A DNA stretch of 64,000 nt from a virus: IMG/VR virus record IMGVR_UViG_3300025872_000040, positions 1 to 64,000 of that record; one strand, written 5' to 3'. Positions 33,726-53,318 of the stretch are shown piece by piece. The notes beneath the pieces are model-generated. The model saw only the letters and a list, made by a program, of their open reading frames with translations. It made no database searches and was not told the origin of the DNA. The position numbers were made by a program, and so were the translations under genes. Numbering within the stretch: position 1 is the stretch's first letter; every line of letters starts with the position of its first letter.

Positions 33726-34208
33726 ATGCCAAACTACGCACACGTTGAGAACGACCAGATCCAGAGGCTGTACGACGTTGTCCCTACCGCGTGGAGAAAC
33801 GTGAGCGGCCTCGACAAGCTCAGCGACGAGGAGCTAGTCGACTACGGCTGGTACAGGATACAGAAGCAAGACGTAAGCTTCGACGCGGCGACTCACTACG
33901 CCACCTACGACTACTCCTACGACTCGGCCGACGACGTCGTCAGAGAGACGACCGTCATTCATGAGAAGGTCGCGCCCTCCATCGAGGAGGCAAAGCCGGC
34001 GTTCCTGCGCTTTCTTAGAGAGGTGAGGAACGAGAAGCTAGCCGAGACAGACTTCACCCAGCTGGCAGACGTAGTAGCCAGGTCCACTCCGGAGCAGAAC
34101 CAGGCCTGGGCAGACTACAGGCAGGCCCTGAGGGATCTACCGGAGCAGTACGCCACAAACGACGTAATAAATATCCAGAACGTCGAGTGGCCTTCTAAAC
34201 CGGAATGA
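33726..34208 (+). CDS. Tail-fibre assembly chaperone-like protein (copy 1)
   Basis: The 160-residue protein starts YAHVENDQIQRLYDVVPTAW and ends with a helical part: FLREVRNEKLAETDFTQL, then WADYRQALRDLPEQY. This 'RN..L...D.TQL...  YRQALRDLP' pattern is typical of phage tail-assembly chaperone-like proteins (Phage_tail_APC group) beside fibre genes. The protein at 47824 is a paralogue with the same layout and the same position between a collagen-like and an RCC1-repeat gene. Such proteins may fold fibres or be structural. The ATG follows the fibre stop by 12 bases. Confidence 0.7.
   Translation: MPNYAHVENDQIQRLYDVVPTAWRNVSGLDKLSDEELVDYGWYRIQKQDVSFDAATHYATYDYSYDSADDVVRETTVIHEKVAPSIEEAKPAFLRFLREVRNEKLAETDFTQLADVVARSTPEQNQAWADYRQALRDLPEQYATNDVINIQNVEWPSKPE
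34166..34173 (+). promoter_or_regulatory. Possible late promoter AATAAATA inside the chaperone gene, for the RCC1 gene
   Basis: AATAAATA lies 53 bases before the ATG of the giant RCC1-repeat gene, the spacing seen at clear late promoters here. The first base departs from TATAAATA and the equivalent place in the second cassette lacks a box. Confidence 0.35.
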
Positions 34209-34218
34209 TTGTCAGCAG

Positions 34219-37200
34219 ATGCTTATCTTTCAGAGTCTTCTAGCGCCAGCAGCGACCTCTAGCCCAGTGGTCGTGACCCCGTACCCTCTGTACGGTTGGG
34301 GTGTTAACACTACCGGCAAGCTAGGAATCAACAACAACACCACTCAGTCCTATCCCGTTCAGGTGCTGTCCGGCACGTCTTGGAAGAGCTTCTCCACCGC
34401 TTTCAACCACTCGCTCGGAGTGAAGTCAGACGGCACCCTGTGGGCTTGGGGTGGAAACGCTAGTGGTGAGCTTGGTATCAATGTTAAGTCAGGAAGAAGG
34501 ACCTCTCTCGATAAGTTTGATAACTCCAGCTGGACGATGATAAAGACCGACAACCAGCACACCGTCGGTCTCAAGTCAGACGGATCTCTCTGGGCTTGGG
34601 GAGTAAACTCTAGCGGACAGCTCGGAACTAACGACGTCGTCACGAGGTCGTCTCCGGTACAGATAGGCACCAGCAGCTGGACGTCAGTCGACGCCGGAGC
34701 AAACTTCACTGTAGCGCTTAAAGTAGGTGGTACTCTCTGGGCGTGGGGTCTAGGAACTGGCGGGCAGCTAGGCATCAGCGCTGCAACCAGTCGCTCTTCA
34801 CCTACACAGGTCGGCGCTCTTACGACATGGTCAAAGGTCTCTGCCGGATCTGCAGCAGTTATAGCGTCAACTTCTGACAACTATGCATACGTCTGGGGAA
34901 CTGGTCTGATGCAGGCCGCCAACGACGGCTTCGTACTCGTTAGGTCTTCTCCTGTAGCAGTTGCTTTCCAGCCGTTCGATGGAGCTCTTTCTGCAGCAGG
35001 AATATTCCAAAGTACAATACTTATCGACAAACAGTACAGATTGTGGGCATGGGGAGGTAACACTTATTCCGGTTTAGCTCCCGGTATTCTTGGAACAAAT
35101 GATACGTTTGACAGAAGCTCGCCTGTCTTAGTCAGCTCTACTGGCTCTTGGACCATGATCTCCGGTAAGAGCAACTCGTTTGCAGCAATCAAGTCTGACG
35201 GCTCGCTGTGGACGTGGGGATACAACGCGCAGGGACAACTTGGGACGGGTGATACTAAGAACAGGAGCTCTCCGACTCAGATCGGCACCAGCAGCTGGTC
35301 GATGGTGTCGACCGGTACTTACTTCATGGCCGCGATTAACATCAACGGACAGGTGTTCTGCTGGGGAAGTGGCGGTCAGGGATCATTAGGAAACAACGCG
35401 GCTATCGACAGGAGCTCTCCCGTACAGCTCGCCTCTACCTCTAGCTTTAACGTCGTCTCTGTCGGAAACTTTCACGCTCTCGCTAGAACCATTAACAACA
35501 AGCTCTGGGCTTGGGGAATAAACAACTACGGCCAGCTTGGAGCTAGCTTAGGAGTTACTGCTGCTAGATCATCTCCAGTCGCGATAGGAACGACTACTAG
35601 CTGGACCGCGATATCAGCCGGCAGCGACCACTCCGCGGGAATAACCTCTGCCGGATCGCTATGGACCTGGGGAAGCAACGGCCTAGGAGCTCTCGGAAAC
35701 TCATCCACCATCAACAGGTCGTCACCAATTCAAGTTGGAGCGGCTACAACATGGACAAAGGTGGAAGGTGGAGTTGACTACACGCTGGCGATGACTGAGA
35801 GCGCCGGAACTGCAACAGTATATCACTTTGGCCAGAACGCCGGTAGGGCTGGAAATGGAACTACGGCTACTACCAGCTCGCCGGTTGCCGTGTACACGAC
35901 TGCAGGAACACCGAAGCTCATAACTTCTTTCTCTGGTGGTTCTACTTACATCATATCTCCAGACGATACTATCATCGGAACAGGAGAGAACGTATTATAC
36001 TCTCTGGCTCTTGTTGACTCTCCTCTAGCTAATACTACAGTGTGGAAGATAGTAGGTCACTCTCCACCTGGAACAATTAACTCTGTAGCTATGGGCACTG
36101 TACATGGAGCGGTAGTTGCTAATAATAAGCTTTATGGTCTAGGACTCAATGACTTCGGTCAGCTTGGCGCTGGCACTACGATCAGCAGGTCACGCGCCGT
36201 CTTGGTAGACTCCTCGAAGACGTGGTCAACGATCGACACGGGTTACTACGCGTCTATGGGAATAACCAGCGACGGTAAGCTCTGGTCCTGGGGAAACAAC
36301 ACACAGGGACAACTCGGGTTAGGTGATATAGTCGACAGAAGTAGTCCGACGCAGGTAGGAAGCAGTAGTTGGACTGTGGTTAGTTTGTCAAAAGCTAGCG
36401 CTGGCCCAGTGTTTGCTGCGGGTGTAACGACCGACGGAAAGCTCTGGGGCTGGGGAAGGAACTACGACTACCTGCCTCTAGGGTTCCTTGGAGACACAGC
36501 CGTTCTTACTAATAGGTCTGCACCAGTTCAGATCGGATCCGCTACAAACTGGACAAGCGTCTCGGTCGAGGGTCAGCAGACGTCATCTACGAACGACGCT
36601 CTGATCGTTGGGGTCAACAGTCTTGGCGAGGCGTACTGGCAAGGCAACGGAACTGACTTCGCCATCAACGACGCAAACAGGGTCTCTCCAGTTCAGATCG
36701 GCACCGACACCGACTGGGAGAGCGTAGCAGCAGGTGGCGGTGTCGCCCTTCTCGCTCACTCGTTCGCGATCAAGACGAACAAGACCCTATGGTCGTGGGG
36801 CTCAAACTACTGGGGAAACCTTGGACTTGGTCTAGCTAACAACGTCGATAGGTCATCTCCTACTCAAGTAACGGCAGGGCCGACAAACGGAAGCTGGAGC
36901 GCGGTCGCCGGAGGGTATAACTTCGACTACGGTATCGACACCTCTGGAAAGCTCTGGGCCTGGGGCTACAACTATACCGGCGGCGGTCTAGGCCTCGGGG
37001 TCGGAGACGTCACTAACTACACCGCACCTCAGCTAGTGACCAAGCAGAGAAGCTTCACTTTAGCAAGCGCACCCTACGTTGCAGGCGGTGGCAATTTCGG
37101 AGCCACGGTCATAGACTCTCTGAACAACGAGGCTTGGTCGTGGGGTGGAGGCACGTCTGGTGTAACAGGTCTAGGAGTGACGACGACATACTACAGTCCG

Positions 37201-40200
37201 ACTCTCGTCCCGAGCACATCGTGGAGAGTAATATCTTCAGGGTCAGACTTTGCTGTCGGCGTTAAGGCTGACGGCACCCTCTGGTCGTGGGGTGGAAACG
37301 TCAACGGTCAGCTCGGCAAGAACAGCACGGTGGGGTCACTAACGCCGGCGCAGATCATGACTGGAAGCAGCTTCACGACGGTCTCAGCTGCAGAATACAG
37401 GGCCTACGCCATATCTACGGCCGGTCAACTCTTCGCCTGGGGCTACAACAGCGCAGGAAACGCCTGGAACGACGGGAACGCTAGGTCGTCTCCGGTCCAG
37501 ATCGGCTCTAGCAGCTGGTCAGCTATCGCCTCTGGTCACAAGCACGACGTCGCTCTAACAGTCGACGGAAGTATGTACGCGTGGGGAGACAACGCTGCCG
37601 GACAGCACGGACTCAACGACGACCTCTACATTAGCAGGAGCAGTCCGACTCTGGTGGCTACTTCCATCTCGAAAGTATTCGCGGGCAACGCATGCACCTC
37701 GTACATCGACGGACTGTCTAGGTTGTTCTACGCCGGAAATGACATAGCTGGAGGAGCTGGAAGAAGTGGTCCGTTCTTTAACCCGGTCGTCGGATACATG
37801 AACGAGCCTTTCAACGAGACTCTCGGCGCCGCGGCAGGATCCTGGACCATGGTAGCCTTCGGCTACTATCCTGGCTTTGAGTCTTCTTACACTACCGCTC
37901 TAGGCGTGAAGAGCGACGGAAGTCTCTGGGCCTGGGGAAACAACAACGCTGGCACCATAGGTGACGGTACTACAGTAAACAGGTTTAGAAACCCTCAGAA
38001 GATAGGAAGTAGCAGTTGGTCGTTCGTTGCAGTAAATAACCAAGTGGCGGCGGCGATAGATACCGCCGGCCGGTTGTTTACCTGGGGTGTTAACACGGAC
38101 GGAAAGCTCGGTCAGAACAGCGTGGCGAGCAGGTCTTCTCCCGTGCAGGTGGCTGGATCTTGGAACTTCGTCGCGATAGGTCAGTCTAGCGTGGCTGCGA
38201 TTAAGACCGACAGCACACTGTGGACGTGGGGAGGTAACGCTAACGGTCAGCTCGGCGTCAGCGACACAATAAACAGGTCTTCACCCGTGCAGGTGGCGGG
38301 AGCTTGGGTCATGGTTGCCTTCTCGGGTGCTCAGTCAAACGAGTCTAAGAGCATGATCGGAATAAAGACCAACGGTCAGGTCTACACATGGGGACTGGGT
38401 TCGATCCAAAACAGCTATCTCGGAGGATCTATCGGAGCCCGAAACGAAGTCTACGGGATCGACAGGTCTTCTCCTGTATCTATAGGAGCCCCGCTGACCT
38501 ACACAGGAATAAGCGCGACCACCGTCAGCGCTTCAGACTACGGAGTGTCTCTCATAAGAATGTCCGACGGAAACTTGCTCACGTGGGGCTACGGCGGCTT
38601 CGGGAGCCATGGACACAGCGATCAAATCAACCGTTCGTGGCCTACCGTAGTCGGACAGACTCTGTCTTGGTCAGTGCTGTCGATGGGCGTAGATCACGTC
38701 GCAGCGGTTAGATCGGACGGCTCTCTCTGGTCATGGGGTCTCAACTCGGACGGAAGGTTAGGCACCAACGACACTAACAATAGGTCTTCTCCTGTACAGA
38801 TTGGCTCCTTGACTAACTGGTCAGACGTCTCTGCAGGAAACGGACACACGCTAGCGAGAAAGACAGACGGAACTCTCTGGGCTTGGGGTTCTAACGGGCA
38901 GGGAAGACTGGGAGACGGCACCACCATAAACAAGTCTTCACCGATACAGATAGGTACCAGCAGCTGGAGCGCGATCTCGGCAGGGTATACAACCTCTGCA
39001 GGAATAAGCGCGTTTAGACTGTTTGTCTGGGGTGACGACGGTTTAGGAAGACTCGGTCTCAACACTAGTAACGTTCATCAGTCTTCGCCGGTCCAACTCG
39101 GCACCAGTAGCTGGTCTGCGGTCTCTGTAGGAGAGCCGCACATGTTAGCTATAAGAACTGACGGAGCCTTGTTCGCCTGGGGAGGTGACGCTGGCTACGG
39201 TTGTCTAGGCTTAGACATCTCGACGAGCAGGTCCTCTCCGATTCAAGTCGGTACCAGCAGCTGGTCGCAGGTATCAGCCGGCTACTACGGCAGCATGGGC
39301 ATCACTACAGCCACCTCTCTATGGGCGTGGGGGTCTAACTCGCAGGGGAGACTAGGTGTTGGAGACGTTAGAAATAGGTCAGTGCCTACTCAAGTGGGAG
39401 CTCTTACTGGCTGGACGGCTCTAGGTAAAACTATTGTTACAGAGGTTAATACTGCCATCAGAGGCTCGGCGCTGTACGCGATGGGCGCAGTAGACGCTAT
39501 AACCGGAGACAGATCTTCGCCGGTCCTAGTGGGAGTAGGAGACTGGAAGAACAGCTGCACTACTCAGTACTATCATCTTGCTATCTATAATAAGACTATG
39601 ATTCTTACTGAGGGTCATGTTAACACGCCTTACGTCCTCGGAAACAACAGCACCACGACTAACTCCTGGAACACCAGTTCGCGAACGATCATGGAGGGTA
39701 CAAAGGGACACCGCGCTTACCCAGACGGCCCGTGGTCCAACAACTCTCACATGTTGTACGGTACTACTAAAGCGGTGAAGACCGACGGCACTCTATGGGC
39801 TTGGGGTGACAACTCTCTTTATCAGATTGCCACAAAAGACAACGTATCTAGATCGTCACCCACTCAGATAGGAACGGCCACGAGTTGGAGAACTACGAGC
39901 GTGGCGGTTAGAGCTCTTGGGGCATCAATACTTGGAGAATTAGACACGACCGGAAAGGTCTGGACGTGGGGCATCGGCAACTACGCTGGCTCCATGGTGA
40001 ACCCACTCCAGTCGTTCACGCAGATCCCAGGATCTTGGTCGATGGTCTCGTACGCCAGACAGGACTACTCTACTCAGGCGGGAATCAAGACCGACGGCAC
40101 GCTATGGACTTGGGGCTACGGCCAGTCCGGCTCGACAGGTCTCGGAAGCACCACCGCTAGGTCGTCTCCGACACAGGTCGGAACCAAGAACGACTGGACC

Positions 40201-41931
40201 TACGTGGCCTCTGGTCAGAACACAGTGATAGCCATCGGAGACTACGGTCAAGTAGTCTACGCCTGGGGTTACAGGCCGGGGGCTTTTTCTATCAATAGCA
40301 CCTCTTCTCCAGTAGCGCTGTTCGCGCCTAACTTCTCGGCTAAAGAGCTCGCTCCGAGCATGCTCGGCTCACACACGATGGTGCTGTCGACTGCCGGGTC
40401 TCTCTACGCCATCGGCGCTGGAAAGGACGGAGCGTTCGGAGACGGACTGACTACTACGTCGGCGTACGTTCCGATCAAGATAGACAACGGCACCTGGAAG
40501 AAGATAGCCACGGGCAACTCGCACACGCTCGGTCTAAAGACTGACAGCACTCTGTGGGCATGGGGCCTTAACACGTCGGGACAGCTGGGGATACAGGACG
40601 CTACAACGAGAAGTTCTCCGGTACAGGTCATGGCTGGAAAGAGCTTCACTGCGATAAGTGCCGGAGCGACTGGTTTCTCGCAAGTCATCGATCAGAACGG
40701 AATCATGTGGGGATTCGGTTTACCTACCAACGGCGTGCTCGGCATATCATCAACGGTCTCAAATAGATCAATGCCGGTAACCGTCGGTGAAGACTGGTCT
40801 ATCATTTCTACGGGAGGGTCGCACACGGCGGCGATAGACAGTGAAGGAGGTCTTTGGGTCTGGGGAACAAACTCATTTGGTTCACTCGGCGTTAATGACA
40901 CCATCGCTAGAAACGTAGTGACTAAGATTGGTACTTCTAGTTGGGTGTTCGTCACTTGCGCAGTCAACAGTACTATGGGAATCACCGCCGACGGCAAGCT
41001 TTATGCTTGGGGAAGGAACAGTAACGCAAACCTCGGCGTCGGAGACACGCTAGATAGGTCGTCGCCTGTACAAGTCACGAGCAGCGTCAGCAGCTGGAAG
41101 TTCGTAAGCACTATGGACGACGTGTCGTTTGGAATCGCGTCAGATGGAACTCTCTGGTCGTGGGGATCTGGAGCTAAGGGAACTCTTGGAGACGGAAGTG
41201 CTACTCTTACTAGATCCGCCCCGAACCAGATCTCGACAAGCAACTGGACAGTAGTTCGATCTTCGTATGGAAGTAGCAACAACGGCTACGGAATCACTGC
41301 CAGCGGAGACCTGTACGCTTGGGGCAACGGAGCCGGCGGAGCTATACCTCTCAACGCTTCTACAGGAGACAGGTCATATCCAACTCTTATATCTAGCGGG
41401 TGGTGGGCTAACGTCAACGCTCTTGCAGCACCGAACAACGGCGTCGGAGTGGCCATCAAGTCAGATCGTACTCTCTGGGTGTGGGGCTCACCAAACAACG
41501 TTGCTGTACTCGGCCTGAACAGCGCGACCAACAACAGAAGCTCGCCGACTCAGATTGGAACGAGTTCGTGGTCTGCAGTCACCGGTCAGCTGACTCAGGT
41601 AGCGGCTATCGACGTCGACGGTCGTCTGTTCATGTGGGGGGCAAACGCAAGCGGCATACTAGGAAACAACGATACACTTACTAGGTCGTCACCGACTCAG
41701 GTCACGGGTTCACTTAGCTACACGATGGTTACAATCGCAGCCGCGTACACGCACGGAATACAAGCAGTCACAAAAGACAGGTACTACTGGGGAGCCTCTA
41801 ATGCTGCGTATAGCGGACTTGGTACCGGTATAGCAAGAAGCAACCCAACGTTCGTTGCAGAGGGAAAGATAGGAAGCTGGACAGCAGTAAACGCAGGGTA
41901 CGACTCGGTTCTTGCCACGAAGACCGTATAA
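34219..41931 (+). CDS. Giant RCC1-repeat beta-propeller protein, predicted fibre adhesin
   Basis: The 2570-residue protein consists almost wholly of RCC1-type repeats of about 45-60 residues: SDGSLWAWGVNSSGQLG, RSSPVQIGTSSWTSVDAG, then HTVGLKSDG. By length that is roughly 45-55 blades, enough for about seven propellers; I did not count each. There is no signal peptide; the N-terminus is MLIFQSLLAPAATSSPVVV. Bacterial and phage RCC1-like repeats occur in secreted binding proteins, whereas the eukaryotic RCC1 exchange activity is not expected here. The gene follows the chaperone-like gene by 10 bases and has a 787-residue paralogue at 48338. No strong Shine-Dalgarno precedes the ATG. A host-contact role is inferred from context. 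Confidence 0.85.
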   Translation: MLIFQSLLAPAATSSPVVVTPYPLYGWGVNTTGKLGINNNTTQSYPVQVLSGTSWKSFSTAFNHSLGVKSDGTLWAWGGNASGELGINVKSGRRTSLDKFDNSSWTMIKTDNQHTVGLKSDGSLWAWGVNSSGQLGTNDVVTRSSPVQIGTSSWTSVDAGANFTVALKVGGTLWAWGLGTGGQLGISAATSRSSPTQVGALTTWSKVSAGSAAVIASTSDNYAYVWGTGLMQAANDGFVLVRSSPVAVAFQPFDGALSAAGIFQSTILIDKQYRLWAWGGNTYSGLAPGILGTNDTFDRSSPVLVSSTGSWTMISGKSNSFAAIKSDGSLWTWGYNAQGQLGTGDTKNRSSPTQIGTSSWSMVSTGTYFMAAININGQVFCWGSGGQGSLGNNAAIDRSSPVQLASTSSFNVVSVGNFHALARTINNKLWAWGINNYGQLGASLGVTAARSSPVAIGTTTSWTAISAGSDHSAGITSAGSLWTWGSNGLGALGNSSTINRSSPIQVGAATTWTKVEGGVDYTLAMTESAGTATVYHFGQNAGRAGNGTTATTSSPVAVYTTAGTPKLITSFSGGSTYIISPDDTIIGTGENVLYSLALVDSPLANTTVWKIVGHSPPGTINSVAMGTVHGAVVANNKLYGLGLNDFGQLGAGTTISRSRAVLVDSSKTWSTIDTGYYASMGITSDGKLWSWGNNTQGQLGLGDIVDRSSPTQVGSSSWTVVSLSKASAGPVFAAGVTTDGKLWGWGRNYDYLPLGFLGDTAVLTNRSAPVQIGSATNWTSVSVEGQQTSSTNDALIVGVNSLGEAYWQGNGTDFAINDANRVSPVQIGTDTDWESVAAGGGVALLAHSFAIKTNKTLWSWGSNYWGNLGLGLANNVDRSSPTQVTAGPTNGSWSAVAGGYNFDYGIDTSGKLWAWGYNYTGGGLGLGVGDVTNYTAPQLVTKQRSFTLASAPYVAGGGNFGATVIDSLNNEAWSWGGGTSGVTGLGVTTTYYSPTLVPSTSWRVISSGSDFAVGVKADGTLWSWGGNVNGQLGKNSTVGSLTPAQIMTGSSFTTVSAAEYRAYAISTAGQLFAWGYNSAGNAWNDGNARSSPVQIGSSSWSAIASGHKHDVALTVDGSMYAWGDNAAGQHGLNDDLYISRSSPTLVATSISKVFAGNACTSYIDGLSRLFYAGNDIAGGAGRSGPFFNPVVGYMNEPFNETLGAAAGSWTMVAFGYYPGFESSYTTALGVKSDGSLWAWGNNNAGTIGDGTTVNRFRNPQKIGSSSWSFVAVNNQVAAAIDTAGRLFTWGVNTDGKLGQNSVASRSSPVQVAGSWNFVAIGQSSVAAIKTDSTLWTWGGNANGQLGVSDTINRSSPVQVAGAWVMVAFSGAQSNESKSMIGIKTNGQVYTWGLGSIQNSYLGGSIGARNEVYGIDRSSPVSIGAPLTYTGISATTVSASDYGVSLIRMSDGNLLTWGYGGFGSHGHSDQINRSWPTVVGQTLSWSVLSMGVDHVAAVRSDGSLWSWGLNSDGRLGTNDTNNRSSPVQIGSLTNWSDVSAGNGHTLARKTDGTLWAWGSNGQGRLGDGTTINKSSPIQIGTSSWSAISAGYTTSAGISAFRLFVWGDDGLGRLGLNTSNVHQSSPVQLGTSSWSAVSVGEPHMLAIRTDGALFAWGGDAGYGCLGLDISTSRSSPIQVGTSSWSQVSAGYYGSMGITTATSLWAWGSNSQGRLGVGDVRNRSVPTQVGALTGWTALGKTIVTEVNTAIRGSALYAMGAVDAITGDRSSPVLVGVGDWKNSCTTQYYHLAIYNKTMILTEGHVNTPYVLGNNSTTTNSWNTSSRTIMEGTKGHRAYPDGPWSNNSHMLYGTTKAVKTDGTLWAWGDNSLYQIATKDNVSRSSPTQIGTATSWRTTSVAVRALGASILGELDTTGKVWTWGIGNYAGSMVNPLQSFTQIPGSWSMVSYARQDYSTQAGIKTDGTLWTWGYGQSGSTGLGSTTARSSPTQVGTKNDWTYVASGQNTVIAIGDYGQVVYAWGYRPGAFSINSTSSPVALFAPNFSAKELAPSMLGSHTMVLSTAGSLYAIGAGKDGAFGDGLTTTSAYVPIKIDNGTWKKIATGNSHTLGLKTDSTLWAWGLNTSGQLGIQDATTRSSPVQVMAGKSFTAISAGATGFSQVIDQNGIMWGFGLPTNGVLGISSTVSNRSMPVTVGEDWSIISTGGSHTAAIDSEGGLWVWGTNSFGSLGVNDTIARNVVTKIGTSSWVFVTCAVNSTMGITADGKLYAWGRNSNANLGVGDTLDRSSPVQVTSSVSSWKFVSTMDDVSFGIASDGTLWSWGSGAKGTLGDGSATLTRSAPNQISTSNWTVVRSSYGSSNNGYGITASGDLYAWGNGAGGAIPLNASTGDRSYPTLISSGWWANVNALAAPNNGVGVAIKSDRTLWVWGSPNNVAVLGLNSATNNRSSPTQIGTSSWSAVTGQLTQVAAIDVDGRLFMWGANASGILGNNDTLTRSSPTQVTGSLSYTMVTIAAAYTHGIQAVTKDRYYWGASNAAYSGLGTGIARSNPTFVAEGKIGSWTAVNAGYDSVLATKTV

Positions 41932-41971: not shown

Positions 41972-43705
41972 ATGCACAAGATTGACATGCAACTGAAGCT
42001 TATGCTCGACGGAAGGTTCGACGAGGCTTGGCAACTCTCAGAGGAGATGCAGGCGATCGGGCCAGAGAACCTCCTCGATGCGCGCGGTCAAAAGAACCCA
42101 GAGATGTGGGTCAGACACAGCTTCAACCGAGGCTGGTTCCTCCTTCAGCAGAACAAGTACAAAGAGGGGTGCCAGCTCCTTGAGAACGGTCGCTTCATCA
42201 AGGTCTACGGCAGCCCACCGATGAAGACTACGGCTCCTCTCTTCAACCCAGAGGAGCACGACGTCAAGGGTAAGTCGATAATCATCTCGCTCGAGGGAGG
42301 ATACGGCGACGAGATGATCCACGCTCGCTTCGCTACTTCGTTCAAGAACCTCGGCGCGGAGAACGTCTACCTCGCGGCGGACCCGTCGCTTCACTCTATC
42401 TTAGAGCGCATAGACGGCGTGACCAAGTGCATAACGCGAGCCGAGGCGCACACGGTTCACCACGACTACTGGCTTCCTGGCTTCTCGGCGGGGTGGTTGT
42501 CTGGTCATACGTTCGACGACTTCCCTGGAAAACCTTACCTCACCGCGAAGCCAGAGTCGGTCGATATGTGGAAGAGCGTCCTCAACTCTGACAAGAAGAA
42601 GGTCGGCATCCGCTGGGCAGGCAACCCGAAGTTCGAGCACCAGCAGTTCAGGCGCTTCCCAGAGAAGTTCATGACCCAGATGTCAGAGTACGAGGGCCTG
42701 CAGCTCTACTCCCTCCAGAGAGACAACAACGTTATCGAGCTTCCCGAGAAGATCATCGACCTCCAGCACCTACTGATCTCGTGGGAGGACACCGCCGCGG
42801 CGATCATGAACCTAGACCTAGTGATCACCTCATGTACCTCAGTGGCGCATCTCTCTGCAGCTTTGGGCAAGGAGACGTGGGTGATGGTGCCGATCCTCCC
42901 CTACCACACCTGGACACTGAACGCTCCGTACTCGACTTCCTCACCTTACTACGAGAGCGTCAGACTCTATCGACAAGAGAAGAAGAGCGAGTGGAACCAA
43001 CCGTTTCAGCGTCTCTACGCAGACCTCGAGAGAAAGTTTGACCTTCCTCACCTAGACCTCCCTACACAAGACAAGGAGGTCAAAAGGTTAAACCTCGGGT
43101 GCGGCTTCAAGAAGCACGAAGGATTCGTTAACGTCGACGCCTCGAGCATATGCTCACCGGATCAGGTCGTAGACCTCAACAGCAAGACGTGGCCGTGGAA
43201 GGACGACGAGTTCAGTCACGTCATAGCCAAGGACATCCTTGAGCACCTCGGTCACTCCGGCGTCAAGTTTGAGGACATCATCAAGGAGATGTACAGGGTC
43301 TCTGACAACGGGGCAGTCTGGGAGGTTCAGTTCCCTCACTGGAACTGCGACATAGCCAAGTCAGACCCGGAGCACGTTCGACTGCTGACCATCGACACCT
43401 TCAAGCTCTTCGACAAGAAGCGTTGCTACGAGAAGGCTGTGGCTGGTGAGACCGACTCGTACCACGCTTTCACGCACGACGTGGACATCGAGGTTCTCGA
43501 GCACGCGCTGGAGTTCACCGGTGAGCTGCAGAAGATGATAGACTCCGGACAGATAGGTGAGGGTGAGCTCGAGCACGCCATCAACCACCTGAACAACACG
43601 GTGCTGTCAGTGAAGCTTCTCATTCAGGTCCACAAGCCTGGAAGACACGACCGTCAGGAGTTGGACCGCGAGCTAAGGAAGGCAGCCCTCCATGGATCTA
43701 TCTAA
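41972..43705 (+). CDS. TPR-GT9-like glycosyltransferase fused to a SAM methyltransferase
   Basis: From ATG 41972 (preceded by GGAG) the protein has 577 residues; an in-frame ATG at 41912 lies inside the RCC1 gene and lacks a ribosome site. Residues 1-85 are helical and TPR-like. Residues about 90-340 match the GT9/TPR-linked GT-B family: SIIISLEGGYGDEMIHARF, VGIRWAGNP near 210, IDLQHLLISWEDTAAAIMNL, then TSCTSVAHLSAALGKETW near 287. GT9 includes ADP-heptose heptosyltransferases. Residues from about 370 are a class I methyltransferase (KRLNLGCGFKKHEGFVNVD; VIAKDILEHLGHSG). It lies between a giant RCC1 gene and a GT25 gene, and a heptose-type pathway is encoded 8 kb away. Acceptor unknown; fibre proteins are the obvious candidates. 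Confidence 0.8.
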   Translation: MHKIDMQLKLMLDGRFDEAWQLSEEMQAIGPENLLDARGQKNPEMWVRHSFNRGWFLLQQNKYKEGCQLLENGRFIKVYGSPPMKTTAPLFNPEEHDVKGKSIIISLEGGYGDEMIHARFATSFKNLGAENVYLAADPSLHSILERIDGVTKCITRAEAHTVHHDYWLPGFSAGWLSGHTFDDFPGKPYLTAKPESVDMWKSVLNSDKKKVGIRWAGNPKFEHQQFRRFPEKFMTQMSEYEGLQLYSLQRDNNVIELPEKIIDLQHLLISWEDTAAAIMNLDLVITSCTSVAHLSAALGKETWVMVPILPYHTWTLNAPYSTSSPYYESVRLYRQEKKSEWNQPFQRLYADLERKFDLPHLDLPTQDKEVKRLNLGCGFKKHEGFVNVDASSICSPDQVVDLNSKTWPWKDDEFSHVIAKDILEHLGHSGVKFEDIIKEMYRVSDNGAVWEVQFPHWNCDIAKSDPEHVRLLTIDTFKLFDKKRCYEKAVAGETDSYHAFTHDVDIEVLEHALEFTGELQKMIDSGQIGEGELEHAINHLNNTVLSVKLLIQVHKPGRHDRQELDRELRKAALHGSI

Positions 43706-44399
43706 GTCTCTAAACTTCGGGTATGATACCTCGGTAGAGTCAGCCTACATCATCACGATCAAAGACCACTCCGAGTCAGAGAGACTAGCCAAGGGATGTC
43801 AGCGATCTTGCGACATAGCCGGCATGCCGTGGAAGACATGGGACGCCTTCGACGCTACCGACGGCAAGACCATAAAGATACCTGAGCACTCTAAAGACTC
43901 GTCGTGGCTGAAGTGGGTGAAGGTGTACGATCATCACCTATCAATCACCGAGATAGCATGCTTCTTCAGCCACGCTAGCCTCTGGGCGAGGTGTCTCGAG
44001 ATGGACAGGCCGATAGTCATCCTCGAGCACGACGCCATCATGGTCCAGCGCTACCCTCACATGACTGCCTACAACAGCATCGTGTACCTCGGGGGAGAGG
44101 AGCAGAAGAACCACAGGATGCCGGTAGGTCCCGTGCCGCCTCACGGCTCCCTCAACAACAACTATCACTTCATCTGCAGGGCGCACGCCTACGCCATAGA
44201 CCCACCGATGGCCAAGAACCTGCTCGGCACCCTGATCCAGAGGGGCATATGCGAGAGTCTAGACGTCATCATGAGGGCGGACCTCTTCAACATCAGTCAG
44301 GCAGGCCTGTACGCCTACGACAGGTTCGAGGGTACTACGATCGTTAATAGAAAGAAAGACGTCAGCCTCAAGGACGAGAACGTGGGCAATGAGCGGTAG
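43692..44399 (+). CDS. GT25-family glycosyltransferase
   Basis: The 235-residue protein fits GT25 (LPS beta-galactosyltransferase/procollagen galactosyltransferase family). It opens with SAYIITIKDHSESERLAKGC and has a WDAFDATDGKT element. ITEIACFFSHASLWARCLEM is followed by IVILEHDAIM, where most members have E-D-D-A. The His in place of the first Asp is a notable change in the presumed metal site. The C-terminal part (AHAYAIDPPMAKNLL) fits the family. The start overlaps the preceding gene by 14 bases and has AAGGAAGG upstream. It lies 52 bases before the second collagen-like fibre gene. Donor and acceptor cannot be told from sequence. Confidence 0.8.
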   Translation: MDLSKSLNFGYDTSVESAYIITIKDHSESERLAKGCQRSCDIAGMPWKTWDAFDATDGKTIKIPEHSKDSSWLKWVKVYDHHLSITEIACFFSHASLWARCLEMDRPIVILEHDAIMVQRYPHMTAYNSIVYLGGEEQKNHRMPVGPVPPHGSLNNNYHFICRAHAYAIDPPMAKNLLGTLIQRGICESLDVIMRADLFNISQAGLYAYDRFEGTTIVNRKKDVSLKDENVGNER

Positions 44400-44404
44400 G
44401 TTCT

Positions 44405-44412
44405 TATAAATA
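44405..44412 (+). promoter_or_regulatory. T4-type late promoter, TATAAATA, for second collagen-like fibre
   Basis: A perfect box preceded by CT lies in the 52-base gap after the GT25 gene, 47 bases before the fibre ATG. Confidence 0.75.
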
Positions 44413-44451
44413 ACCTAGATTCCCACCAACAACAAATAAGAACGAGCTCAA

Positions 44452-47400
44452 ATGGCCGATACTATCTGGGACTACAGCGGTTCAGTACAGGAGCTGATCG
44501 ATCTCTACAACAGCTGGTCTACTCTTCCACTCGAGGAGCAGGCAGCCAAGGAGGGAACTCGGTTTCTTATCACTGGTGACGGCTTTACTAACGGGGCCGG
44601 AGCTTGGTTTGACTGGGGGCTAGACGGCGGTATCATATGGGTCTACAGTATCACACCGTCTTGGTGGGTCTGGTATAATAATGAAAAGGTAACCACGTCA
44701 CCGTTTGGTTCCACTCTACCAGGATACGCAGCTGACGTAGTCTATATGCTTAATGCAGTCGGTCTACCCGGCTCAACTTCGGCATTTCCTTCTAACACCC
44801 CCCGCTACAGCTTCTGGGGAGAAGCCAGAGTACAAGGATATACCGGTTCACGCGGCATGATCGGCTACACTGGTACGATCGGCTTCGCAGGATCTATCGG
44901 TTATGCCGGCTCTCGAGGCTACACTGGCTCGTCAGGCTACACCGGGTCCGCATCTACTTTCCCAGGATACACCGGATCTCAGGGCTACACCGGATCTGCA
45001 ATCGTCGGCTCTCGCGGTTACACCGGGTCTGCGTCTACGGTCATCGGCTACACTGGAAGCATTGGGTACACCGGCTCCAAGGGTGTACAGGGCATTCAAG
45101 GAAACACCGGTTATACCGGATCCGAGGGTCCTCCCAACGGCTACACCGGCTCTAGAGGTAGCACCGGCTACACTGGCTCGGTTGGATACTCTGGAAGCCT
45201 AGGCTACACTGGATCGAGAGGACTGACTGGATTCTCCGGATCTGGCTTCGCCGGCTCTCAGGGATACACTGGCTCACTCGGCTACACGGGCTCACAGGGC
45301 TACAGCGGCTCTGCCGGATTCACCGGATCGGCGTCGACTGCTCCGGGATACACCGGATCTATCGGATACACGGGTTCAGCTGGTTACACCGGCAGCAGGG
45401 GTCTAACAGGCATACAAGGAGACCAAGGTCTTGCTGGCTACACCGGTTCGGTAGGAGAGTCGCTGCAGCCGGACGAGGTCGGACCTCTCTCTGGCAGAAG
45501 TGCTTACGACACTCAAGCTAAAGGATTCGCGTACCTAGCGACCGACACCGACTCCATCTACTATAAGCTCAGCGCTACTTCTGGCGACTGGTCAGACCCT
45601 ATAGCTCTCCTTCGCGGATTCACTGGGTCGCAGGGCTTCACTGGATCTTTTGGATTCACCGGCTCAGTCGGGTTCGTAGGGTCTCTCGGCTACACTGGTA
45701 GCATCGGCTACACTGGATCGATAGGCTACACTGGATCGCAGGGCTTCACCGGGTCTAAGGGATTCACCGGCTCCGCGTCTGAGATTCCTGGTTACAGCGG
45801 TTCTCGCGGCTTCACCGGCTCGGTAGGCTTCGTAGGATCTCAGGGCGTTCAAGGATGGACTGGCTCGCAAGGTCCGCCGGACGGATACACCGGTTCTAGA
45901 GGTTACACCGGCTCACTGGGGTCTCTTGGCTACACCGGCAGCATCGGCTACACCGGATCTCAAGGCATCCGCGGCTACACGGGTTCAGTAGGTTTCGTAG
46001 GTTCTGCCAGCACGACGCCAGGGTACACCGGCTCGAAGGGCGACTCTGGCTACACCGGATCCAAGGGAGACATAGGCTACACCGGTTACACCGGCTCTAA
46101 GGGTGACCCAGACGGATACACTGGATCTACCGGAGCTCAGGGATACACCGGCTCGCGCGGCTTCGGCTACTCCGGAGTTGCTAGCTCGACCAACATAAAC
46201 GCCTCAGGTACTGGTAACAAGACCTGGGTGATGAACCAGTCCTACACGCAGAACGCTTTCGAGCCTGGAATGCGCGTCAGGATGATATGCGTCGACGACC
46301 CGAACGTCTCGAACGAGGGTAACATCGTCAGCTACGTCGGAACCAACTTGACCATCTCGGTCGACGCGGTCGACGGCGCAGGATTCCAGAACAACTGGAT
46401 ACTCGCTGCTACGGGACGCGTCGGATACCTAGGCTACTCAGGATCTAGGGGCTACACCGGCTCGGTAGGATTTACCGGCTCGGTAGGCTTCGTCGGATCG
46501 GTCGGATTCGCTGGGTCTAGGGGATACACCGGATCGCAGGGTGACATCGGTTACACCGGATCTGCCTCTACCGTCGCCGGCCCTCTCGGCTACACGGGCT
46601 CACAGGGCTACAGCGGGTCGAGGGGCGACACCGGAGCTACCGGCTTCGTAGGGTCTCAAGGTGACCTAGGCTACACCGGCTCTCGCGGCTTCGGTGGAAG
46701 TCAGGGTTACGCTGGATCGCGCGGCTTCACTGGATCGATAGGCGACACGGGCTACACCGGATCCGCCTCGTCGACTCCAGGGTACACCGGCTCACTTGGC
46801 TATACCGGGTCTAGAGGATACAACGGAAGCCAGGGCGACATAGGCTACACCGGCAGCCTAGGCTACACGGGATCTCAGGGACCGATCGGCTACGTCGGAT
46901 CTGCTTCTACCGAGATAGGTCCTACGGGATACACCGGTAGCATCGGTTACACTGGATCGAGAGGCTACGCTGGATCGATCGGTGATACTGGATTCACCGG
47001 CTCGTTCGGAACGACAGGCTACACCGGATCGTTTGGGTTTACCGGATCGAAGGGCGACATCGGGTACTCAGGATCTGCGTCTACCGTTCCTGGTTATACG
47101 GGAAGTCTGGGTTACACTGGATCGCAAGGAGACATCGGCTACACCGGTTCAGCCTCTACTGTAGCTGGACCTACTGGTTACTCCGGCTCACAGGGTGACA
47201 TCGGTTACACTGGATCTAAAGGATTCACCGGATCGTTCGGTAACACCGGCTACACCGGCTCTGCTGGTGCGGGATTTACCGGCTCGCAGGGTGACACAGG
47301 CTTCACTGGATCGGGTGGATACACCGGATCGTTCGGATACACCGGGTCGGCTGGATCATTCGTCGTACCAGGTACGAACACACAGGTAGTGTTCAACGAC

Positions 47401-47811
47401 GGCGGTAACGCTAACACCGCGGCTACCTTCGTGTACGACAAGACCAACGGCAGGGTCGGTGTGGGAACTGCCTCGCCGGCGGCCACGATCGACGTGACCG
47501 GAAACTATGGCATGAACATCGTCACTGTCACTGCGTCGGACATCGACTGCTCTCAGGGCAACTACTTCACTAAGACTGCATCTGGAGCTCTGACGTGGAC
47601 CTTCTCTAACGTACCGGCTTCTAGGGCGGTGCTCGTGATCCTCGAGCTCACCAACGGTGGCACCGGAACTCAGACCTGGCCGGCGTCTGTTAAGTGGCCA
47701 GGTGGAACGGCACCAGTTCTAACGGTGTCTGGAGTAGACGTCATAACGTTCCTAACTGACGACAGCGGCACGACGTGGCGCGGTAACCCGACCATGTTGG
47801 ACAGCAAGTAA
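44452..47811 (+). CDS. Second collagen-like tail fibre
   Basis: The 1119-residue protein has a unique N-terminal domain of about 130 residues (DTIWDYSGSVQELIDLYNSW; Trp-rich). Gly-X-Y repeats of the GYTGSRG/GYTGSAS type follow. Two inserted domains, GPLSGRSAYDTQAKGFAYLA and GYSGVASSTNINASGTGNKT, each have a counterpart in the fibre at 26790. The C-terminal domain (NTQVVFNDGGN; SQGNYFTKTASGALTWTFSN; FLTDDSGTTWRG) is also shared. Many repeats here are broken by SASTxxGYTGS segments, which interrupt the Gly-X-Y phase. The C1q-like domain of the larger fibre is absent. It is followed in order by a chaperone-like and an RCC1 gene, repeating the first cassette. Confidence 0.85.
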   Translation: MADTIWDYSGSVQELIDLYNSWSTLPLEEQAAKEGTRFLITGDGFTNGAGAWFDWGLDGGIIWVYSITPSWWVWYNNEKVTTSPFGSTLPGYAADVVYMLNAVGLPGSTSAFPSNTPRYSFWGEARVQGYTGSRGMIGYTGTIGFAGSIGYAGSRGYTGSSGYTGSASTFPGYTGSQGYTGSAIVGSRGYTGSASTVIGYTGSIGYTGSKGVQGIQGNTGYTGSEGPPNGYTGSRGSTGYTGSVGYSGSLGYTGSRGLTGFSGSGFAGSQGYTGSLGYTGSQGYSGSAGFTGSASTAPGYTGSIGYTGSAGYTGSRGLTGIQGDQGLAGYTGSVGESLQPDEVGPLSGRSAYDTQAKGFAYLATDTDSIYYKLSATSGDWSDPIALLRGFTGSQGFTGSFGFTGSVGFVGSLGYTGSIGYTGSIGYTGSQGFTGSKGFTGSASEIPGYSGSRGFTGSVGFVGSQGVQGWTGSQGPPDGYTGSRGYTGSLGSLGYTGSIGYTGSQGIRGYTGSVGFVGSASTTPGYTGSKGDSGYTGSKGDIGYTGYTGSKGDPDGYTGSTGAQGYTGSRGFGYSGVASSTNINASGTGNKTWVMNQSYTQNAFEPGMRVRMICVDDPNVSNEGNIVSYVGTNLTISVDAVDGAGFQNNWILAATGRVGYLGYSGSRGYTGSVGFTGSVGFVGSVGFAGSRGYTGSQGDIGYTGSASTVAGPLGYTGSQGYSGSRGDTGATGFVGSQGDLGYTGSRGFGGSQGYAGSRGFTGSIGDTGYTGSASSTPGYTGSLGYTGSRGYNGSQGDIGYTGSLGYTGSQGPIGYVGSASTEIGPTGYTGSIGYTGSRGYAGSIGDTGFTGSFGTTGYTGSFGFTGSKGDIGYSGSASTVPGYTGSLGYTGSQGDIGYTGSASTVAGPTGYSGSQGDIGYTGSKGFTGSFGNTGYTGSAGAGFTGSQGDTGFTGSGGYTGSFGYTGSAGSFVVPGTNTQVVFNDGGNANTAATFVYDKTNGRVGVGTASPAATIDVTGNYGMNIVTVTASDIDCSQGNYFTKTASGALTWTFSNVPASRAVLVILELTNGGTGTQTWPASVKWPGGTAPVLTVSGVDVITFLTDDSGTTWRGNPTMLDSK
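44833..47360 (+). repeat. Gly-X-Y collagen-like coding repeats (second fibre)
   Basis: Degenerate in-frame units like those of the first fibre, with more frequent interruptions (SAST-type breaks) and two folded-domain inserts. Confidence 0.9.
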
Positions 47812-48337: not shown

Positions 48338-50701
48338 ATGCTGATCCTTGGCTCAGGAATTATGAGAAAGAAAGTTCAGAGTGACTCTCTGTTCGGGGCC
48401 GGCTATAGTACTTGGTATAGTCTCGGAAACAGCTTTGATGGTGCTAGAAGCTCTCCAGTCGCGGTGACTGCAGCCGGAAACCCTCTGATCTACAAGTCTT
48501 GGAAGACTGTTACTGGAACTAACGGAAACACCGCGGCGTTAAACAGCGTCGGAGAGCTCTACGTCTGGGGTGACAATAACTTTGGACAGTGGGGAAACAA
48601 GACTGCAGGAAATACGAGTCTAGCTCAGCCTGGATTTGACAGAGCGACGCATAGGTCTAGCCCTACGCTGGTTCCCTCTACAGGAAGTTGGACAGTAATT
48701 TCTGTCGGAGGTTACTCGGGGGAAGAGTATAGAGAAGTATGCAATACTGGAATCTACGACCCTAGCGCTCACGTTGCAGGGATCAAGTCAGACGGGACTC
48801 TCTGGACCTGGGGTTACGGGATCTACGGTAAGCTTGGAGCTGGAAACACTTTTAGCAGGTCTTCTCCTACTCAGCTTGGAACTAAGACTGACTGGGTAGA
48901 CGTTGCGTGCGGACCGGAGTTTACGATAGCGTGCGACTCTGCGGGTGACTTGTACGCGTGGGGACACAACTACAGAGGTCAGCTCGGTGACGGAACTACT
49001 ATCGACAGGTCTTCACCGGTCCTCGTGTCCTCAGTTAGAAACTACACCAAGGTCTACGCATCTGGGATGAAGTCGTTCGCAGTCGACGACACTAATCAGT
49101 TGTACTGGGCAGGAGCCGGAGCGAACGCTACATCCCTTGGATACTATCCGACATCAATCGACTCATTGACTCACTCGTCAGTAACCCTTGGAAACAACTT
49201 CTCTAGCGGTTCGATGGGTCCTCAGCACGGTCTGTTCATAAAGACTACCGGCGCTCTATACGCGGCTGGAATCAACGACTACGGGCAGCTTGGTCTCAAC
49301 GACACTTTCAGCAGGTCGAGCTTTGTTCAAGTAGGAGCTGGAACCAACTGGTCAACCGTTATAGTGTCAGCCAGCCACACGCTAGCTCTCAACAACACCG
49401 GGTCTCTGTTCGTCTGGGGAAGAAATAACTACGGACAGCTTGGACTCGGCGACGTCGTGAACAGGTCTTCTCCGACTCTTCTGTCCACCGGCGTCTCTTA
49501 CGTAATGGCTGCTGGATATAACACCTTCTACGTTAAGACCGACGGTACCCTGTGGGCCGTCGGAACCGAGAGATCTGGTCAGCTAGGTAATCAAGACTTA
49601 CTGCTTGACTTTGACACACCACACATCAACAGATCTTCTCCGATTCAGATAGGCTCCGGATTCACGTCTAACATCTTTGGAAAGTCTAACTATCGCGGGG
49701 CTGGAGCTAAGAGCTATATAAACGACGGAAAGCTCTACATGTGGGGTGTCAACGGATACGCGGCTGCGGACGACAACGCTACGAGTTGGACACCATACAA
49801 AAACTTCTGGCTTATGGAGACGAACAGACTCTTCACCAAGGTGCCCGGATCATGGAGTGCTGTATCCATGGGAACTGAGTACGCAGTAGCTATCAAGTCA
49901 GATGGGACCCTATGGTCTTGGGGATCTAATGCATCTTATGGACAGCTTGGAATCAACCTTACTAGCGCAGCAGGAAACAACGGCAGAAGCATACCAGTTC
50001 TAGTATCAAGCGACACGACCTGGAAGAAAGTTCAGGCTGGATTTGGCGGAGCTCTAGCTCTAAAGGGAGCTAGCAGCCCATACAGCCTCTACGGCTGGGG
50101 ATACTACTACATCACGGGTCAGAACAGTTCTATAAACAGAAGCTCTCCGGTGATCATTGGAGCGGCAAACAACTGGAAAGACATAGGCTTCAGTGAGAAT
50201 AGTCTGACGGTCTACGCCGTGGATAAGAACGACAACATCTACGTGTGGGGATACAACAACGTAGGACAGCTAGGCTTAAGCGACACGATCGATCGCTTCA
50301 GTCCTGTGCTACTTGCTACAGGTCAAGCAGGGGCAAAGGTGCAGGCCGGACAGGATCACGGACATATAATTAAGTCCGACGGCTCGCTGTGGTCCACTGG
50401 AAGCAGCGCCTACGGACAGACCGCTCTCGGCTACACTAACGTTTCTAGCTTCACTCAGGTCGGAAGCTCCTCTTGGACAGCGGTAAGCGCCGGCCAGCAA
50501 CACTCTCTAGGCATAGACGCGGCTGGTCGCCTTTTTGCCTGGGGAAGAAACAACTACGGGCAGCTGATGGGTCCGTCTCCAAACATTATCACCTACACGT
50601 ACTCGACGGTTCAAGTCGGGTCTGGCGCTTACGGAAGTTGGACTCTCGTTCGTGCAGCGAGAGACAGCTCGTTCGCCTCAGCTAAGGTAGACATTACTTA
50701 A
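48338..50701 (+). CDS. RCC1-repeat beta-propeller protein, shorter paralogue
   Basis: The 787-residue protein has RCC1-type repeats through most of its length (SDGTLWTWGYGIYGKLG, RSSPTQLGTKTDWVDVACG, SAGDLYAWGHNYRGQLGDG). By length that is about 14-16 blades, or two propellers. The N-terminus MLILGSGIMRKKVQS parallels the MLIFQSLLA start of the giant copy. Its stop overlaps the stop of the convergent HldD-like gene by 8 bases, and no terminator hairpin is evident there. The leader ends in AACAGATGCT with no strong ribosome site, similar to the giant copy (CAGATGCT). Confidence 0.85.
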   Translation: MLILGSGIMRKKVQSDSLFGAGYSTWYSLGNSFDGARSSPVAVTAAGNPLIYKSWKTVTGTNGNTAALNSVGELYVWGDNNFGQWGNKTAGNTSLAQPGFDRATHRSSPTLVPSTGSWTVISVGGYSGEEYREVCNTGIYDPSAHVAGIKSDGTLWTWGYGIYGKLGAGNTFSRSSPTQLGTKTDWVDVACGPEFTIACDSAGDLYAWGHNYRGQLGDGTTIDRSSPVLVSSVRNYTKVYASGMKSFAVDDTNQLYWAGAGANATSLGYYPTSIDSLTHSSVTLGNNFSSGSMGPQHGLFIKTTGALYAAGINDYGQLGLNDTFSRSSFVQVGAGTNWSTVIVSASHTLALNNTGSLFVWGRNNYGQLGLGDVVNRSSPTLLSTGVSYVMAAGYNTFYVKTDGTLWAVGTERSGQLGNQDLLLDFDTPHINRSSPIQIGSGFTSNIFGKSNYRGAGAKSYINDGKLYMWGVNGYAAADDNATSWTPYKNFWLMETNRLFTKVPGSWSAVSMGTEYAVAIKSDGTLWSWGSNASYGQLGINLTSAAGNNGRSIPVLVSSDTTWKKVQAGFGGALALKGASSPYSLYGWGYYYITGQNSSINRSSPVIIGAANNWKDIGFSENSLTVYAVDKNDNIYVWGYNNVGQLGLSDTIDRFSPVLLATGQAGAKVQAGQDHGHIIKSDGSLWSTGSSAYGQTALGYTNVSSFTQVGSSSWTAVSAGQQHSLGIDAAGRLFAWGRNNYGQLMGPSPNIITYTYSTVQVGSGAYGSWTLVRAARDSSFASAKVDIT

Positions 50702-51473
50702 TCAAGTCGTTGTAGTTGTACTGCGCGCTCGTGAAGTACTGATACTTTCCCTGTAGCTTCAAGGGAAACTTGATTCTCTCTATTCTAGCGCCGGTCCTGC
50801 TAGCTATCGACTCAGCCACCTCTGTGAAGCTCTTAGGCGCAGCAGTACCTACGTCGTAGATTCCTGACTCTTTCTTGCACTCTAGGATAGTCTTCACGAC
50901 GCTGTTGACATGTATAAAGTCACGGTGAGCGCTGTCAGAGTTGTCGAAGATCTTTATGACTCTTGTCTCGTTCGCCTGCTGCATGAACTTGTAGTATGGA
51001 CTCGCCTGCTCCCCCTTCGACCCCTCGTTGTCACCGTACACATTGAAAAACCTCATCCCCCTCACGAGCTTGAACCTGCTCATGTTGTCCTCGACCCAGG
51101 CGTCGACGGTAGCCTTGGTCATGGCGTAGTAGTTAAGCGGGTTTATCCTGTACTGCTTTCCCTCACATGTGTTGCCATAGACCGACCCAGAGCTCGCGTA
51201 TGTGACCGGGATCTGGTAGTCGATCGCCTTCTCAAAGAGCCTGATGCTGAAGTCCACGTTGTGCGCGTGCAAGAGGTTAATGTCCTTGCAGGTCGTGTCT
51301 GATATTGCTCCGAGGTGATAGATCTCGTCGACGTTCTCCCACTCTATCGCGTCTAGGATGGTAAAGATGTCTGGGAGAGTGTTCGTCAGCGTGTCGTAGC
51401 AGGCGACCTGACCGTCAAGCTTTGCCAGCAGGTTCCTTCCAATGAATCCACAGTTACCGGTGACAAACTTCAT
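50694..51473 (-). CDS. hldD: ADP-glyceromanno-heptose 6-epimerase-like (HldD-type) SDR enzyme
   Basis: The 259-residue extended SDR protein has the nucleotide-binding GNCGFIG at 6-12, a YASS element near 92-95 and the YxxxK pair Tyr116/Lys120. Several segments match HldD closely: IYHLGAISDTT, RFFNVYGDNEGSKGEQAS, HRDFIHVNSV, GIYDVGTAAPKSFTEVAE and FPLKLQGKYQYFTSAQ. HldD (about 310 residues in E. coli) converts ADP-D,D-heptose to ADP-L,D-heptose. This version is shorter, mainly between the binding loop and the active site and at the C-terminus. It is last in a leftward four-gene operon and overlaps the preceding gene by 20 bases. A closely related nucleotide-sugar epimerase activity remains possible. 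Confidence 0.82.
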   Translation of the reverse strand: MKFVTGNCGFIGRNLLAKLDGQVACYDTLTNTLPDIFTILDAIEWENVDEIYHLGAISDTTCKDINLLHAHNVDFSIRLFEKAIDYQIPVTYASSGSVYGNTCEGKQYRINPLNYYAMTKATVDAWVEDNMSRFKLVRGMRFFNVYGDNEGSKGEQASPYYKFMQQANETRVIKIFDNSDSAHRDFIHVNSVVKTILECKKESGIYDVGTAAPKSFTEVAESIASRTGARIERIKFPLKLQGKYQYFTSAQYNYNDLIK

Positions 51474-51789
51474 CTTGGTTGATCTCCCTGTGAGGACCGG
51501 TGAAGTACAGGTCTGCGTTCATGGCCTTGTCGTCTATCCACACGTCGTACGACGGCTTCTTCATCTTCAAGCTAGTGTACCTGCAGCCCCACTCGTGAAG
51601 CTGTCTCTCGGTCAGTTCGCTCCAGTCGATACCAGAGTTTCCGCCGCGCGCGGTCCAGTAGTGGATCTCGTGACCCCAGTCGTACAGCATGTTGAAGTGG
51701 TTGATCCTATCCTTGATGGGCTCGCTCCTCGTGTAGTCAGACCCCTTGGTCCTGCATATGGTCCCGTCGATGTCGACCATGTACCTCAT
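51454..51789 (-). CDS. Small HAD-superfamily phosphatase
   Basis: The 111-residue protein carries the HAD motif I YMVDIDGTICRT, a motif II-like HYWTARGG, and a motif III/IV region KMKKPSYDVWIDDKAMN. It is a capless or minimally capped HAD of the type found in sugar and capsule clusters. In ADP-heptose synthesis a HAD enzyme (GmhB) removes the C7 phosphate between the kinase and adenylyltransferase steps. This protein is well placed for that step, but it is much shorter than GmhB and lacks its zinc loop, so the role is only a suggestion. It overlaps the cupin gene by 4 bases (ATGA). Confidence 0.75.
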   Translation of the reverse strand: MRYMVDIDGTICRTKGSDYTRSEPIKDRINHFNMLYDWGHEIHYWTARGGNSGIDWSELTERQLHEWGCRYTSLKMKKPSYDVWIDDKAMNADLYFTGPHREINQDEVCHR

Positions 51790-53307: not shown

Positions 53308-53318
53308 GTCGCTCACCT

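Follow-up and report, generated by a model that had tools for sequence, protein, structure and literature searches.

We analyzed a 64,000-nucleotide stretch of viral DNA (the window; positions 1 to 64,000 of IMG/VR record IMGVR_UViG_3300025872_000040), the source record being a 117.8-kb T4-like virus contig. The gene of interest, here called GT9-MT, lies among the following genes:

33726-34208, + strand: tail-fibre-assembly-like protein (160 aa, PHROG_4912 / 8716)
34219-41931, + strand: giant RCC1-repeat protein, the presumed acceptor (2570 aa, PF00415)
41972-43705, + strand: GT9-MT, a fusion of a TPR-like region and GT9-fold glycosyltransferase with a class I SAM methyltransferase (577 aa)
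43692-44399, + strand: GT25-family glycosyltransferase (235 aa, PF01755, E 2e-14)
44452-47811, + strand: collagen-like (GXY) fibre protein (1119 aa, PF01391, E 2e-82)
48338-50701, + strand: second RCC1-repeat protein (787 aa, PF00415, E 1e-68)

The fibre-assembly-like gene precedes the giant RCC1 gene, an order repeated in many relatives. The giant RCC1 gene, which an earlier note on this DNA had placed beside GT9-MT, indeed ends 40 bp before it, and the last 14 nt of GT9-MT are also the first 14 nt of the GT25 gene. Given this short gap and this overlap, the three genes are likely to form one transcription unit.

The GT9-MT open reading frame was present where the earlier note had put it, as were all of the motifs quoted from it: GGYGDEMIHARF (residues 109-120), VGIRWAGNP (residues 211-219) and TSCTSVAHLSAALGKETW (residues 286-303). 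A mechanical ORF call begins at a TTG at 41912, upstream of the ATG at 41972. The latter is immediately preceded by GGAG and is supported as the start by an 'MHxxD' beginning common to dozens of relatives of the 577-residue protein; the stop codon ends at 43705. The glycosyltransferase part spans residues ~98-358 and the methyltransferase part residues ~366-560. In the predicted structure the first 76 residues form two helical hairpins. The TPR-linked layout claimed earlier therefore held in part: the hairpins are there, but TPR HMMs gave significant matches to several relatives and none to the window protein itself. Hence, we describe the N-terminus as short, helical and, judging by the model, TPR-like.

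Direct sequence searches (phmmer and hmmsearch against Pfam, NCBIfam and PDB) did not identify the glycosyltransferase domain. The Pfam GT9 family PF01075 (Glyco_transf_9) fell below detection for the window protein; among 56 relatives, 8 had weak matches to it, with E values no better than 0.004. A profile comparison against WaaC and WaaF yielded nothing beyond short local matches of low probability. The GT9-like domain proposed in the earlier note was borne out by structure prediction and fold search. An AlphaFold2 model of the whole protein, built from 56 aligned sequences, had a mean pLDDT of 92.5 (93.2 when the glycosyltransferase part was modeled alone). When this part was searched against solved structures, rows 1-8 were all GT9 proteins with Z scores of 16.9-19.1, among them a Veillonella GT9 (3tov, 19.1), WaaF (18.5), TibC (17.1) and WaaC (17.0). 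The UDP-GlcNAc 2-epimerases (11.9) followed only after three plant NDH subunits. A GT41 (OGT) assignment was dropped, OGT being far down the fold list (Z ~9). The plant proteins (rows 9-11, Z ~15) are subunits of the chloroplast NDH-PSI supercomplex that have the GT9 fold, which suggests that a GT9-like protein was recruited to that complex.

The putative active site shares some, but not all, features with the heptosyltransferases. D113 was invariant in the 164 aligned relatives (164/164) and by its motif would correspond to D13, the catalytic base of WaaC. Residue R227, which is R or K in the relatives, would by the same reasoning stand at the position of WaaC K192. Like these two residues, W271, T274, H293, R334, Q335 and W341 were almost perfectly conserved. 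The position of WaaC D261 is taken by C288, a cysteine in 160 of the 164 aligned relatives; weak-scoring profile alignments put the SCTS motif on VDTG of WaaC and NDSG of WaaF. Distant bacterial members (such as L104) retain aspartate at this position. LPS heptosyltransferases require D261, and the D261A substitution costs WaaC about 2000-fold (PMC5713226). The D-to-C change could thus mean that the donor chemistry was altered or lost.

The linkage to RCC1 genes was followed in both directions. The forward set consisted of GT9-MT relatives from viral contigs with near-copies removed (53 loci, 51 of them with upstream sequence). In 45 of these 51 non-redundant loci a same-strand RCC1 gene lay upstream of GT9-MT at a distance of no more than 300 bp, and 49 had one somewhere in the locus; RCC1 genes make up about 9% of all genes in the GT9-MT loci. 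The reverse, RCC1-first set was fetched by RCC1 proteins of a marine virus and of S-SRM01, with GT9 ignored. GT9 was found in 43 of the 63 non-redundant RCC1 groups and lay within 300 bp of RCC1 in 37, always on the same strand (37/37); among loci longer than 9 kb the count was 29/34. The 20 groups without GT9 included many loci that were short or were another part of a GT9-positive contig. A terminase-anchored control gave no GT9 in 35 loci (296 kb). Across 50,697 phage records, those with a GT9 of the type found in marine virus AG-345-E08 and those with a closely related RCC1 protein were exactly the same: AG-345-E08, S-SRM01 (two entries) and BUCT-ZZ01. Beyond these, RCC1 matches came solely from a pair of Clostridioides phages and reached about 24% identity. 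A search with the window's own 787-residue RCC1 protein returned only a near-identical copy. This conserved, bidirectional linkage strongly supports the idea of fibre-protein glycosylation put forward in the earlier note. As GT9-MT nearly always adjoins RCC1 fibre genes, it probably decorates RCC1 fibres with capped sugars, although linkage by itself does not establish RCC1 as the acceptor. A GT9-specific sequon in RCC1 was also sought (SSP/RSSP counts and a repeat profile), and loci with and without GT9 showed no clear difference.

Further RCC1 loci deserve mention. Bacterial MAG contigs assigned to Bdellovibrionales and Patescibacteria (L102:2453-8024 and L103:1-9955) pair RCC1 with the same SCTS-type GT9; these are possibly bacterial surface proteins or prophages. 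In AG-345-E08 (L017:4465-5617), a 2OG-Fe(II) oxygenase (PF13640) and a second, unassigned small ORF lie between RCC1 and GT9, and it is possible that the oxygenase hydroxylates the acceptor ahead of glycosylation.

The C-terminal part is the fused methyltransferase that the earlier note had described. The window protein matched PHROG_6636 (E 1e-15) and contains the SAM motif LNLGCG, Methyltransf_11 was matched in 39 of 56 relatives, and residues 367-558 found class I methyltransferase structures at Z 12-14. The fusion partner varies among relatives: instead of a C-terminal methyltransferase, 39 of 53 GT9 ORFs in the RCC1-first set carried an N-terminal sulfotransferase (PF13469, E values down to 7e-18), and in AG-345-E08 and S-SRM01 the sulfotransferase is a separate gene near GT9. 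In environmental phages, such sulfotransferase-GT9 fusions (L120:8269-10011 and, in L109-L186, about 38 ORFs like it) directly adjoin RCC1 genes. If both enzymes decorate the transferred sugar, one would expect methyltransferase and sulfotransferase to replace each other beside the same GT9. The sister-gene fusions thus fit the earlier suggestion that the methyltransferase caps the sugar, and we infer that the transferred sugar is its substrate.

These fusions also bear on whether the GT9 domain is active. It could be a pseudoenzyme devoid of glycosyltransfer activity that serves as an RCC1 chaperone or assembly factor; the near-universal cysteine in place of a residue so important to WaaC would agree with this, as would the plant NDH-complex subunits, in which a GT9-like fold is part of a structural complex. 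However, near-perfect conservation of the base, of R/K227 and of the six other residues named above argues for a functioning site, and fusion to a methyltransferase or sulfotransferase is easiest to understand if a glycan is produced. Hence, we regard a non-catalytic role as improbable.

The interpretation that we favor, with moderate confidence, is that GT9-MT is a glycosyltransferase dedicated to fibre proteins of the RCC1-repeat (beta-propeller) type, the fused methyltransferase capping the sugar. The N-terminal helical region would probably bind the substrate. A nucleotide-sugar would then serve the GT9 domain (D113 as the base, R/K227 at the phosphate/sugar site) as donor; the sugar would go to side chains, probably those of Ser/Thr, that are exposed on the product of the RCC1 gene immediately upstream, and the methyltransferase would methylate it. 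The coupled GT25 would either extend the glycan or act on the collagen-like fibre.

The gene neighborhood fits a role in the fibres. The usual gene order in relatives is fibre, fibre-assembly protein, RCC1, GT9-MT and GT25, with GT25 at most 2.5 kb from GT9-MT in 39 of 51 non-redundant loci. The nearest phage relative of the window GT25 is in AG-345-E08 (44%). The GT25 family includes collagen galactosyltransferases, and in the window the GT25 gene is directly 5' of the collagen-like GXY fibre gene (43692-47811); GT25 may glycosylate this fibre rather than RCC1. Elsewhere in the window, a gene that runs counter to the fibre genes (23255-26710, - strand) encodes a 1151-residue protein in which an FkbM methyltransferase is fused to two glycosyltransferase domains, one of group 1 and one of family 2. 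That multi-glycosyltransferase fusion is one reason to consider that GT9-MT modifies host LPS or capsule, giving superinfection exclusion or receptor masking as for many phage glycosyltransferases. GT9 enzymes act mostly on the LPS core and GT25 is also an LPS family. We nevertheless think this unlikely, as such a role does not account for same-strand adjacency to RCC1 in both search directions, for the location of the gene inside the late fibre module or for a TPR-like N-terminus of the sort found in FlmG.

FlmG of Caulobacter crescentus is a flagellin O-glycosyltransferase composed of TPR and GT-B parts, the TPR part binding the protein substrate (PMC7591256). As it acts in the cytoplasm on the protein of a surface filament, FlmG sets a precedent for protein glycosylation there by a TPR-GT enzyme (PMC7591256). 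The phage protein, with two helical hairpins in the model ahead of a GT-B domain, would resemble FlmG in this soluble two-part layout. FlmG is described with only these two parts and transfers pseudaminic acid to flagellins, whereas the presumed acceptor of the phage protein is an RCC1 propeller. The analogy drawn in the earlier note was with the bacterial autotransporter heptosyltransferases TibC and Aah, which have a GT9-type fold (Z ~17) and a catalytic aspartate and whose substrate is a surface adhesin (PMC4358343). This analogy did not hold for the two distinguishing features that we looked for. The four-cysteine iron finger of the TibC C-lobe (C339, C342, C358 and C370; PMC4358343) is absent from the phage GT9, in which the only cysteines of the glycosyltransferase part are at 67, 153 and 288, and the N-terminal beta-barrel of TibC/Aah is replaced in the GT9-MT model by helices. 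TibC and Aah also lack a fused methyltransferase and modify a beta-helix passenger. WaaC and WaaF share the fold (Z 17-18.5) and the catalytic base (D13, our D113) with the phage protein, but differ from it in the cysteine at D261, the TPR-like helices, the fused methyltransferase and linkage to fibre rather than LPS genes. Thus, fold and base are GT9-like, but the cysteine at D261 and the absence of TibC traits mean that membership among the ADP-heptose enzymes is not established. RCC1-type repeats are known in virions: an RCC1/BLIP-II-like protein is a structural protein of phage GAP32 identified by mass spectrometry (GAP_001, with multiple copies in 121Q; PMC5259590), and that paper mentions no glycosyltransferase. 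Taken together, GT9-MT appears to be an RCC1-dedicated protein glycosyltransferase of GT9 fold with a capping domain that may work like FlmG or like TibC, the autotransporter-type features of the latter being absent.

The identity of the sugar is the point at which a more specific version of this interpretation has to be considered, namely protein O-heptosylation, in which a nearby operon would supply ADP-heptose, Ser/Thr residues on the fibres (RCC1 or collagen-like) would receive the heptose and the methyltransferase would cap it. The genes in question are:

50694-51473, - strand: HldD-like ADP-heptose epimerase, candidate donor supply (TIGR02197, E 5e-55, below the curated cut-off)
51454-51789, - strand: HAD phosphatase-like protein with a putative GmhB role (weak PF25109)
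51786-52145, - strand: cupin, possibly a sugar isomerase (PF14667, E 2e-06, and PF00190), conserved in the cluster
52138-53316, - strand: HldE-like fused heptose-7-P kinase / heptose-1-P adenylyltransferase, candidate donor supply (NF008454, E 3e-83; TIGR02199, E 1e-51; all below curated cut-offs)

The heptose-type operon of the earlier note is therefore real (50694-53316, minus strand) and lies 7.0 kb downstream of the gene. No GmhA was detected anywhere in the 117.8-kb record. The small cupin is kept inside the phage heptose-type cluster in 14 loci, with GmhA absent, and could be an alternative isomerase or epimerase.

The presence of these genes 7 kb away, and of Hld-type genes in the nearest GT9-MT clade as well (L001, L023 and L025), argues for heptosylation, as do the fold-search matches, the nearest of which are heptosyltransferases (one of them TibC in complex with ADP-heptose). 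Cyanobacterial hosts usually lack heptose in their LPS (PMC4515613). A phage needing ADP-heptose in such hosts would thus be obliged to carry its own enzymes. HldE family controls in named genomes were too unspecific to call ADP-heptose synthesis in S. elongatus. For the window phage itself, a search of the 117.8-kb record yielded no psbA that would point to a cyanobacterial host, and the terminase of that record is only 55% identical to those of cyanophages.

Distribution of the Hld-type genes argues against heptosylation as the general function. They were nearby in 15 of the 51 non-redundant GT9-MT loci, and their presence required about seven changes on the GT9-MT tree, where it was somewhat clustered (14 of 500 shuffles were as low), partly through near-copies. 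The pair is absent from the complete GT9-bearing genomes of BUCT-ZZ01 (which encodes a UDP-glucose 4-epimerase) and S-SRM01 and from long GT9-bearing records of 244 kb (G038), 137 kb (G018) and 99 kb; absence from fragments is weak evidence, and the weight rests on the two complete genomes. BUCT-ZZ01 grows on S. elongatus, the species formerly named Anacystis nidulans. The LPS of A. nidulans was reported to be heptose-free (PMC4515613). Conversely, HldE-like genes occur in some 30 cyanophage or marine-virus records, among which only AG-345-E08 has this GT9. With the cysteine at D261, the missing GmhA and operon matches below equivalog cut-offs, these data leave O-heptosylation a possibility that we hold less probable than not, though well ahead of a role in LPS or capsule modification. 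The heptose donor of the earlier note is thus plausible for this phage, in which the operon is real, but is not general for the GT9-MT family.

Our literature search for RCC1, phage and glycosyltransferase found no account of such a system. We judge the chances evenly balanced that, in environmental phages and some bacteria, RCC1 propellers and their co-encoded GT9 transferase make up a surface-protein glycosylation system that is widespread and has so far gone undescribed, in which the propeller is the acceptor and the sugar is capped by a methyltransferase or sulfotransferase. If so, many uncultured phages would glycosylate their host-recognition or fibre proteins by means of a dedicated enzyme and seal the product with methyl or sulfate, a new route to diversify or protect adhesion proteins that leaves their sequence unchanged. 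This would give a function to phage RCC1-repeat genes and make RCC1 beside GT9 a genomic marker for such systems, bacteria included. BUCT-ZZ01, growing on S. elongatus PCC 7942, would then be a cultured lake phage that has such a system.
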